Positions 7,884 through 59,084 of a stretch of DNA of 64,000 nucleotides are shown here, one piece after another. A model generated the notes under the pieces. The model was not told the DNA's origin. It was given only the letters and a program-made list of their open reading frames with translations, and did no database searches. This DNA comes from Sulfodiicoccus acidiphilus (GTDB taxonomy: Archaea > Thermoproteota > Thermoprotei_A > Sulfolobales > Sulfolobaceae): positions 1,178,001 to 1,242,000 of the forward strand of contig NZ_AP018553.1 of the NCBI RefSeq assembly GCF_003967175.1, read 5' to 3'. The stretch's first letter is position 1. Every line of letters begins with the position of its first letter. The translations under genes and the position numbers were made by a program.

Positions 7884-8175
7884 CCGACTTCTTCCCCATC
7901 CTAAAGGTTTCCCCTCAAAGGGTTAGTAGTTCTCACAGTCGATTCTAAACTAAGCCTCTCTTTCGATCGGGGCAGTCGAGTGATTCGGAGGTCCCATTCG
8001 AAATTAATGAAGGGACCTTCCTTTTCGGCTCTGGTTCCGTCGAAAGGTGCCACTATAGTTGCTCCTGCTTAGTCCTATTGGGTCCTAGGTCGAGCCGGGA
8101 GGAGCTCGGTTAGCATGGTTGAGAAATTGCCTAACGATGTTATTATTACCGTTGCCCTGAAGGGCGAGGCGTTTT
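7884..8175 (-). mobile_element. Miniature tnpB-derived element, minus-strand copy
   Basis: Read on the minus strand, it begins with the left-end hairpin GCCTCGCCCTTCAGGGC and ends with GGGGAAGAAGTCGG, the right end shared with four other copies in the window. Internal blocks (CTAAC..GAGCTCCTCC, GGAGCAAC, CACTCGACTGCCC) align in order with the copies at 8237-8550 and 58481-58817. No open reading frame survives. It stands head-to-head with the next copy, 61 bp away. Confidence 0.6.
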
Positions 8176-8236
8176 TATCTGCCAAGGCAACATGACACAT
8201 TGGAGATTTGAGATCGCGTGTATTTTACACAGAGAA

Positions 8237-8550
8237 GGGGTTGAGGGGGTGGAAAGCCTCGCCTTTCACTGGGGTGTAGCCCCCTCATATTCAAGCACTT
8301 CTTTGTCGGGATACATTGTGACCCTAACGACGCTCCTCTCCCCAGCTCGATCGAGGACTTAACGAAAATGAGGGAGGAGCAGCCAATATCTCCCTTGAGG
8401 GACCGGACTTCACGGAAGAAAGTCCCACCTTCGAGTGGGTTCCCCCCGATCCACTCCACTGCCCACCAAACGAGGCGTGTCAACCCGAACCGGTGGTGGG
8501 AACGACGAGCCCCCTGGGAGGGTTCCCTCCCAGGGTGGGGAAGAAGTCAG
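8237..8550 (+). mobile_element. Miniature tnpB-derived element, plus-strand copy
   Basis: 314 bp from GGGGTTGAGGGGGTGGAAAG plus left hairpin to the right end GGGGAAGAAGTCAG. It shares a conserved order of blocks with 58481-58817. One is CGACGCTCCTC then CCCAGCTCGATCGAGG, which in one frame reads SSIEDLT, like the RuvC-II region of TnpB. The right part contains CCACC/GGTGG and CCCTGGGAGGG-type hairpins, the region that in IS605-family elements is transcribed as the 3' part of omegaRNA. I regard it as an internally deleted tnpB element. Short ORFs inside it are not real genes. Confidence 0.6.
8463..8550 (+). ncRNA. Candidate omegaRNA 3' scaffold/right end of a tnpB-derived element
   Basis: Right-end block aligning with those at 26262-26330, 28279-28346 and 58710-58817. 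It is GC-rich with two potential hairpins and a common terminus at GTCAG. By analogy with TnpB systems the bases just beyond 8550 would act as guide. No transcription evidence. Confidence 0.35.
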
Positions 8551-9221
8551 CATTTCGTTATAAACTACCTTGGTCAACCCCCATCAATTTTCTAGCAATT
8601 GACAGCAACCTCTATACCCTAGATGCTTATGACGGCGAGAAGTTCGTCACGTTCTCCATCAAAGAGTTGTATACTCTGAAGTACGGAGTGCAGTTGAGGA
8701 GGAGTGAAATACAGTCATTTGCATCTAAGCACGGTAAAAAAGGGAAGGAGTTGATGAGGAAGTATTCCCACGGCGAAAGGAACCGTGTAATTGATTACGT
8801 CTACAAGTTCGTGAATCAATTGCTGAAGATGTATCCCTTGATAACATTCGTTATAGAGAAGTTAAATAAACAAGGGATGTTTAATGACGCTAACGATAAA
8901 TTCTCTAAGAAGATTTCTAGGACTGTCTAGAGGAGTATTCACAGCATACTTAAATACAAGGCTCCCCTTTATGGTTACTTCGTAAAAGAGGTGAACTCGC
9001 ACCTCACATCTAAGTCCTGCCCCAGGTGTGGACGTGTTTCCCGAAAGGTCGGCGGGACCTTCACGTCTGAGAGATGCGGGTTCACCCTAGATAGGCAGTT
9101 GAACGCGTCCCTAAACATTTTCCTCAAGGTGTGCGGGTTTCCCCACGTCCGCGACATTCCACGGGTGTGGGTCGGGGTCACCCCGCTAAGGGGCGGAGGG
9201 TGTGAACGAGTTCCCTCGTGA
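8551..9221 (+). pseudogene. tnpB: TnpB (IS605/IS1341-type OrfB) pseudogene, N terminus missing, one in-frame amber
   Basis: The frame reads RuvC-I (FLAIDSNLYTLD), RuvC-II (FVIEKLNK) and then TAG at 8928-8930. After the stop the same frame continues perfectly through RSIHSILKYKAPLYGYFVKE, a zinc ribbon (CPRCG, then SERCG in place of the usual second CxxC) and RuvC-III (DRQLNASLNI), ending at TGA 9219. The stop most simply replaces a conserved TGG (Trp). The catalytic Asp, Glu and Asp are all still present. About 170-190 N-terminal residues are missing, the frame being cut by the right end of the miniature element at 8550. Confidence 0.8.
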
Positions 9222-43990: not shown

Positions 43991-44093
<103 letters not shown>

Positions 44094-48988: not shown

Positions 48989-49490
<502 letters not shown>

Positions 49491-58224: not shown

Positions 58225-58345
58225 TCTCTTCTTCGAGGGTTCCCTTCTAAGCGGTTTGTCGTTCTCACAGTCATTTGGATTACTTTTAAAACAAATTTGT
58301 TATCCTTAATATTTGAATTATCACCTCTGCCCTAAAGGGCAAGAC
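58225..58345 (-). mobile_element. Heavily deleted miniature tnpB-derived element, minus strand
   Basis: GGTTCCCTTCTAAGCGGTTTG...GTTCTCACAGTC aligns with 7905-7940 of the minus copy at 7884-8175, and CTCTGCCCTAAAGGGCAAGA resembles its left-end hairpin in reverse. Only about 120 bp remain. Confidence 0.45.
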
Positions 58346-58480
58346 TTTCGTTGCTTTGTAACTTTACGGCCCGAGCGAAGCTACTGCCACTGGCGTTCAA
58401 GATAGCTGAGTATAACATCCTTTGGGGTTGAGGGAACGGATGGCCCCCTTATAGGAACACTTTCCTAAGTTACAAAAATT

Positions 58481-58817
58481 GGGGTTGAGGGGGCGGAAAG
58501 CCTCGCCTTTCACGGCGGGGACGGATAGCCCCCTTGTATTTATACTTCTTTGTTAAAATTTCTCTTAGTGGTACTAACGACGCTCCTCCCCAGCTCGATC
58601 GAGGGCTTAACGGGACTGTGGGAGGAGCAACCATCGTCTCTCTTCTCTCTTAAGGGACTAGAGCTTTGCGATGAAAGTCCCCTCCTCTTCAAATGGGAGT
58701 GGACCTCTGATCCACTCGACTGCCCACCAAACGAGGGATGTAAACCCGAACCGATGGTGGGAACGACGATCCCTTTGGGAGGGAACCATCGCCCTTCCAG
58801 GGCGGTGAGAAAGTCAG
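58481..58817 (+). mobile_element. Miniature tnpB-derived element, plus strand
   Basis: 337 bp from GGGGTTGAGGGGGCGGAAAG and hairpin GCCTCGCC..GGCGGGG to terminus GAGAAAGTCAG. Collinear with 8237-8550 over most of its length. A partial second left end (GGGGTTGAGGGAACGGATGG) lies at 58426-58445. The ORF across it is not a gene. Confidence 0.62.
58710..58817 (+). ncRNA. Candidate omegaRNA scaffold of the 58-kb miniature element
   Basis: CCACCAAACGAGGGATGTAA through CGATGGTGGG can form a CCACC/GGTGG stem, followed by CCCTTTGGGAGGG and CCCTTCCAGGGC hairpins and the GTCAG end. Conserved with the copy at 8463-8550. Expression unknown. Confidence 0.35.
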
Positions 58818-59084
58818 TTGAAAACAATATTTCAGACCTAGGCCGTAGGAGTCGGATCGTACCATCGGGACTGGGGGAACCAGGTGGAAGGTGAACCTCG
58901 CAACCTCTCTTCCATAGAAGGTGTCGAAGGATTGTTACACCGGACCTCCGCTACAAGCGAAGGGGGATCGAGATTGTCCATAGAAGCAGGCTTCGTCGCG
59001 AGTTGAGGACACCAGGGCCGTGAAGGCGTGGTAGTTCGCGGTCACTTGAAAACGTTTTTTAGATGGGCCGGGAGCTTAAGTAGT
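58818..59084. other. Spacer downstream of the miniature element
   Basis: No gene supported. A T-rich TATA candidate (CGTTTTTTAGA near 59057) precedes the metallophosphoesterase ATG. Confidence 0.3.

Follow-up and report, generated by a model that had tools for sequence, protein, structure and literature searches.

A miniature IS200/IS605-type element of Sulfodiicoccus acidiphilus carrying a predicted gene for a TnpB guide RNA

Introduction

SMN1 is a MITE-like element of 320 bp in Sulfolobus islandicus and is mobilised by the transposase of ISC1733 (PMC3718332). The PATEs of Haloquadratum walsbyi lack terminal inverted repeats, carry palindromes close to their termini and cause no target duplication; they are too short to encode a transposase, and some of them are IS605-type elements minus the core (PMC3119063). 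Non-autonomous relatives of IS605 have so far been treated as bare transposon ends. In IS608, TnpA needs only the end hairpins.

In the cryo-EM structure of ISDra2, the guide RNA (wRNA) of TnpB forms a pseudoknot between positions -105 to -103 and -5 to -3 (PMC10097598). In S. islandicus, IS1341-type tnpB is reported to have no associated sense-overlapping reRNA transcript, unlike the IS605 type (PMC11043419). The guide function of the IS1341 type is therefore uncertain: either it has been lost, or the RNA is needed in trans. Guide-RNA loci without a nuclease gene exist as stand-alone IscB wRNAs in Ktedonobacter, and we know of no demonstration that these are mobile elements with intact ends. 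No paper on guide-RNA-bearing MITEs was found by title or abstract opening, and this absence proves little because most subscription journals are outside the coverage.

Here we describe a family of noncoding elements that was met in a window of 64,000 nucleotides (NZ_AP018553.1, positions 1,178,001 to 1,242,000) of S. acidiphilus, whose 2.35-Mb genome is of the Sulfolobales type. A sequence-only reading of the window had singled out head-to-head pairs of this element; the object of interest is the single element, not the pair.

Results

Copies, size and subfamilies

Four pieces of the family in the window are relevant here:

8229-8550, plus strand (TTAC target at 8225-8228): full-length element of a diverged subfamily; nhmmer 272 bits, profile positions 1-348; sister copy L002, 94% identical; empty site in a tnpB paralogue
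58474-58817, plus strand (TTAC target at 58470-58473): full-length element of the main subfamily; nhmmer 407 bits; included in the 33-copy alignment
7886-8173, minus strand: diverged, decayed relative with an incomplete left end; nhmmer 76 bits, E 1.5e-22, profile positions 28-346 of 348
58234-58349, minus strand: decayed scrap of the family, formerly read as a second minus copy; directed search only, 8.1 and 2.2 bits

The plus-strand sequence 8237-8550 gave 41 matches at no fewer than 40 loci of its own genome, with E values down to 1e-162. The element is about 320-345 bp long, noncoding and devoid of protein genes. As 40 of 108 candidates were scored, the copy number is a lower bound of at least 40 full-length copies, 18 on the plus strand and 22 on the minus strand. 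Over their whole length, thirty-three copies aligned to the 58.5-kb copy with scores above 300 bits, and the similarity stopped sharply on both sides. Their pairwise identity was 84-99% (mean 91%, up to 99.1%). The remaining copies represented diverged subfamilies, and among the matches listed, the 8229-8550 copy had a single close sister (L002). Decayed copies were numerous in the genome, and four additional ones were met in a search with the 111-nt middle of the element. No Rfam family matched the element at the gathering score over the whole window, in which two tRNAs were the sole matches. These tRNAs (43998-44093 and 48989-49084) measure ~96 nt each versus a 71-position model and thus probably contain introns.

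Insertion sites and ends

The target was TTAC at 39 of the 40 copies and TTGC at the exception. On the left, TTAC^ is followed by a linker and by AAAG with a hairpin; on the right, GAAC with a hairpin precedes the closing GTCAG^. GGAAC was present in all 40 copies, GTCAG in 38 and AAAGyCTC in 37, so that each motif of the subterminal hairpins with their 5′ guide tetranucleotides occurred in 37-40 of 40 copies. In copies L046, L043 and L039 the left tetranucleotide is AAAC instead. By the IS608 rule, AAAG would pair with TTAC and GAAC with TCAG, the cleavage sites. The left end of the 58.5-kb copy is as follows:

58497-58500, plus strand: AAAG guide tetranucleotide, followed by the left hairpin at 58501-58520 (from the alignment, counted in 40 copies)

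One copy, at 1515206, lies in a gene whose paralogue aligns without a gap over 334 bp across the junction, which shows insertion without target duplication. A further empty site was readable for the 8229-8550 copy, which sits alone in a tnpB of the IS607 type:

8551-9220, plus strand: remnant of the IS607-type tnpB hosting the copy (PF01385, PF07282; blastp and DNA match to L021)

In the paralogue L021 the sequence is GTGTATTTAC^CGTTTCGTTACAAG, with the TTAC still empty, and the window reads GTGTATTTTAC, element, CATTTCGTTATAAAC. The host tnpB is gone beyond ~10 nt upstream, so that the surroundings appear to consist of old insertions that were piled up and rearranged. An origin of the element from the IS607 type was considered because such tnpB genes (L019, L021) lie beside some copies, and it was rejected, the 8229 copy being merely inserted into one. 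At the sequence level, these features identify the element as non-autonomous and of the IS200/IS605 type, with TnpA-type ends and no target duplication.

Derivation from tnpB-only elements

The genome also holds tnpB-only elements, such as 348382-349649 and 1030094-1031352, whose left ends were matched by profile positions 1-100 and whose right ends by positions 220-348. The description as a miniature tnpB-derived element is thus supported at both ends. The last ~130 nt of the element matched the 3′ guide-RNA (wRNA) region of the tnpB-only elements, and a promoter-like sequence was shared as well:

58539-58544, plus strand: TATA-like box TTTATA, common to the tnpB element at 348382; putative promoter

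A TTTATA or TTTAAATA box was found in 34 of the 40 copies, and the position of the start codon of the 348382 tnpB is GTG in the element. The 111-nt middle was not present in any tnpB element compared. All 5 genomes searched contained matches to it, and those in the own genome mostly coincided with element copies (not every row was checked). In sequence terms, the element is composed of the promoter end and the 3′ wRNA region of a tnpB-only (IS1341-type) element, with a covarying 5′ RNA domain of two helices between them.

Secondary structure of the predicted RNA

In the 58.5-kb copy, a stretch of 249 nt beginning near the predicted transcription start folded with a z score of -3.48, better than 199 of 200 shuffles. 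The predicted RNA features are:

58582-58628, plus strand: helix P1 of the 5′ domain (GCTCCTCCC ... GGGAGGAGC), from covariation; not found in the tnpB elements compared
58718-58817, plus strand: 3′ wRNA-like module with GAAC at 58783-58786, right hairpin at 58787-58807 and GTCAG at the end, from folds and homology to tnpB right ends
58718-58721, plus strand: GACT, with the predicted partner AGTC at 58812-58815, from single-sequence folds
58818-58837, plus strand: predicted guide of the 58.5-kb copy, from the known wRNA layout with an assumed length
first ~20 nt of 8551-9220, plus strand: predicted guide of the 8229-8550 copy, from the wRNA layout

RNAalifold gave a poor consensus for the full alignment (30 pairs, some linking the left end to the middle). 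The helices were therefore named by inspection and from folds of single sequences, and were counted afterwards. Covariation was scored on 25 sequences from the own subfamilies, from relatives and from one archaeal virus. The 43 named pairs had 89.3% paired cells, and 17 of them changed on both sides, versus 8.5 ± 1.8 in shuffled and at most 11 in slid controls. With the end hairpins excluded, 28 internal pairs remained (90.3% paired), of which 11 pairs in 35 cells changed on both sides; shuffled controls gave 6.6 ± 1.2 pairs and 12.6 cells, slid controls at most 6 and at most 7, and 1 of 500 shuffles reached the count of 11. The count of further pair types was not above the shuffles, 75 (43 pairs) and 245 (internal pairs) of 500 being as high. 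The internal helices, two of which are absent from the tnpB elements compared, covaried across genera. As the helices were chosen on the sequences later scored, the slid control leans towards them, and this, together with the kinship of the sequences, which inflates the scores, makes the covariation strong but not conclusive.

Compensatory differences were also seen in the 3′ module between the element and its tnpB version (CCCACC/GGTGGG vs CCCCTC/GAGGGG, and GAGTGG/CCACTC vs GAGGGG/CCTCTC). Pairing of GACU with the guide-adjacent AGUC was predicted in all 4 single folds (two elements and two tnpB elements), and in L053 the two lie at -100 to -97 and -6 to -3. A plus-strand RNA is expected to show more G-U than A-C mismatches, and the asymmetry favoured this strand weakly (33 vs 22, p = 0.089). 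These comparative data demonstrate, within the bounds of sequence comparison, a conserved RNA secondary structure in the element.

Neighbourhood of the copies and the head-to-head pair

The sequence-only reading had paired each plus copy with an upstream minus copy and had taken the recurrence of this layout as a hint that the two may move, or be maintained, together. Both plus copies are indeed full-length members of the family, with the true borders 8229-8550 and 58474-58817; the minus copies were only partly borne out. The one at 8 kb is real but strongly diverged: blastn over the genome returned the copy itself and four weak matches (best other 66% over 228 nt) and no second pair. The one at 58.2 kb was absent from the general search at E 0.05, and a directed search of 575 bp on that side returned only scrap, with 8.1 bits at 58280-58234 and 2.2 bits at 58349-58322. 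The recurrence itself is weak, a full copy with a diverged copy being set against a full copy with a scrap, and the spacers are unequal (about 51 and about 120 bp).

For a census, the 1-kb surroundings of all 40 full-length copies were scanned for family pieces scoring 15 bits or more. Twenty-four copies had no such piece, which speaks against a paired unit. Around the other 16, there were 17 pieces: eight tail-to-tail, seven tandem, one head-to-head (the 8-kb pair) and one right-end scrap of 35 bp, which abuts the 5′ end of one copy and had been wrongly labelled tail-to-tail by the script (nine labelled, eight after correction). With the 58.2-kb scrap included, the head-to-head total is two, and no head-to-head excess was present among the neighbour pieces of the 40 copies. 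The own-genome census found no pair recurring at independent sites with the same partners, and the sister L002 was without a head-to-head partner. The genome-wide survey, proposed beforehand as a way to refute the pair, thus showed that unpaired copies predominate. An inverted duplication from one event was rejected, as the sister of the plus copy is much closer to it than the minus copy is. Judged from these alignments, independent insertions, together with decay, produced the head-to-head layout by chance. The tail-to-tail neighbours (8 of 17) were somewhat commoner than random sides and strands predict, three of them being only 23-51 bp apart.

TnpA and TnpB partners and distribution among relatives

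One intact IS200-type TnpA (137 aa, PF01797) was found in the genome. It matched ISHp608 TnpA with a phmmer E value of 4e-25 and the chains 2ec2 and 2f4f better; its own element has the target TGAC, versus TTAC of the miniature element. The only intact TnpA-TnpB element (G000:C1:430510-432689) has an opposite-strand miniature copy directly beside its left end. A single tnpB with a matching right end is intact in this genome; it encodes a 381-aa protein of the IS1341 type, with the TNB domain PF07282 at 60.5 bits and PF01385 below its cut-off (26.1 vs 30.5). The element of this TnpB uses TTAC and GTCAG, and RuvC-type acidic residues were seen in the protein by eye only.

Among the relatives, 30 of 60 matched at E 0.001, many through right ends only. 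Full-length elements (E<1e-60) were present in 10 of the 31 family genomes; all 10 are among the 12 genomes that have a close TnpB (E<1e-150), and none is among the 19 others (Fisher p = 1.5e-6), with both cut-offs picked after the tables had been seen; this association may reflect common descent alone. An intact TnpA did not predict the element, which occurred in 5 of 13 genomes with it and 5 of 18 without it (p = 0.70), and half of the 10 element-rich genomes were without an intact TnpA. Two genomes, G024 and G028, had many copies though no intact IS200-type TnpA was found in them; either the mobiliser was lost, or there is another route of movement.

Exact DNA patterns of the family at first gave no record among named genomes; a 32-nt pattern was then met in two metagenome-assembled genomes. 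A full copy was found in Sulfolobus tengchongensis spindle-shaped virus 4 (STSV4; OP999031.1, L109:170-529), 96.6% identical to one G024 copy over 353 bp. Four annotated hypothetical proteins overlap the STSV4 copy. An IS110-family element (PF02371 1e-27, PF01548 1e-11) was located at the same point of a miniature right end (GGGGAG^...^AAGTCAG) in two genomes whose outer flanks differ (L094:1838-3031 in G024 and L098:1836-3032 in G020). That suggests that this IS110-family element targets the right ends of miniature elements.

Discussion

Most likely, the element is of the same kind as SMN1 and the PATEs. It resembles SMN1, with which it is compared by description only, in its size, its noncoding nature, its occurrence in Sulfolobales and its presumed need for a transposase in trans; it differs in its guide-RNA content, of which there is none in the available part of the SMN1 description (PMC3718332). 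With the PATEs it shares the lack of terminal inverted repeats, the near-terminal palindromes, the absence of target duplication and, for some of them, the core-deleted IS605-type origin. The PATEs were described before wRNA was known, the available part of their description has no conserved internal RNA or promoter, and most of them are far more divergent than the present family (PMC3119063). The new feature, relative to these descriptions, would be a guide-RNA gene that is conserved, covaries and has a promoter-like sequence of its own. As in the wRNA or reRNA of tnpB (ISDra2; TnpB7 of S. islandicus), the predicted RNA derives from the right end and would take its guide from the flank, with a TAM identical to the insertion target, and a predicted pairing of about -3 to -6 with about -100 is shared with ISDra2. 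Unlike those RNAs, the predicted RNA gene of the element is on its own; it has a promoter-like sequence, and an additional 5′ domain of two helices takes the place of tnpB. The IscB wRNAs of Ktedonobacter likewise have no nuclease gene at the locus, but the nuclease there is IscB and here would be TnpB.

In the reading that we think probable, the element is non-autonomous and mobilised by TnpA, and every copy encodes a complete TnpB wRNA under its own promoter; an IS1341-type TnpB may serve the element in trans. Each copy would be transcribed from its own promoter as a complete guide RNA, with the flanking DNA just after GTCAG as the guide. TnpA in trans would excise the element DNA and insert it at TTAC; an IS1341-type TnpB in trans, together with the element RNA, would cut the resealed site of TTAC plus guide, and recombination would then restore the copy. 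We infer transcription, the TnpB partnership, guide use and retention in trans from sequence. It is more tentatively suggested that the dispersed guide-RNA genes serve one IS1341-type TnpB, so that one nuclease would have about 40 guides per genome, each marking its own insertion site. Since IS1341-type tnpB in S. islandicus reportedly has no reRNA of its own, the satellite RNAs could be the main guides of these nucleases.

The same copies could be plain PATEs or MITEs, that is, core-deleted tnpB elements moved by TnpA in which the wRNA part is a passenger without present function. End hairpins suffice for the TnpA of IS608, and many copies are decayed. The anatomy also agrees with that of the haloarchaeal PATEs (PMC3119063) and of SMN1 (PMC3718332). 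However, internal helices that TnpA does not need covary across genera, and both the tnpB-like promoter and the 5′ domain of helices, which the compared tnpB elements lack, have been retained; we therefore consider a mere passenger rather unlikely. The strong structure, the many copies, the promoter-like sequence and the persistence in genomes without intact TnpA could be those of a noncoding RNA family, such as a regulator, that was exapted by the host after past transposition and unlinked from TnpB. Such an exaptation appears improbable given the TnpA-type ends intact in nearly all 40 copies, the near-identity of copies (up to 99.1%), the full copy in an archaeal virus record and the retained guide-adjacent pairing. 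That the head-to-head pair is itself a mobile or maintained unit can hardly be believed: opposite-strand family sequence lies upstream of a full copy at two places in the window, but head-to-head pieces are 1-2 of the 17-18 neighbours of 40 copies, 24 of which have none, the two minus pieces are unlike in length, content and spacing, and the sister of the plus copy is unpaired.

If the favoured reading of a working guide RNA kept in each copy is right, these elements exploit an RNA-guided nuclease as well as a transposase, and if the satellite RNAs are the main guides, the element would be a satellite of both. This could explain the high copy number and the persistence where TnpA has been lost. 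It would also make these tractable archaea a natural setting in which to test TnpB acting in trans with multiple guides, as well as the origin of guide RNAs as genes of their own, a step towards CRISPR.
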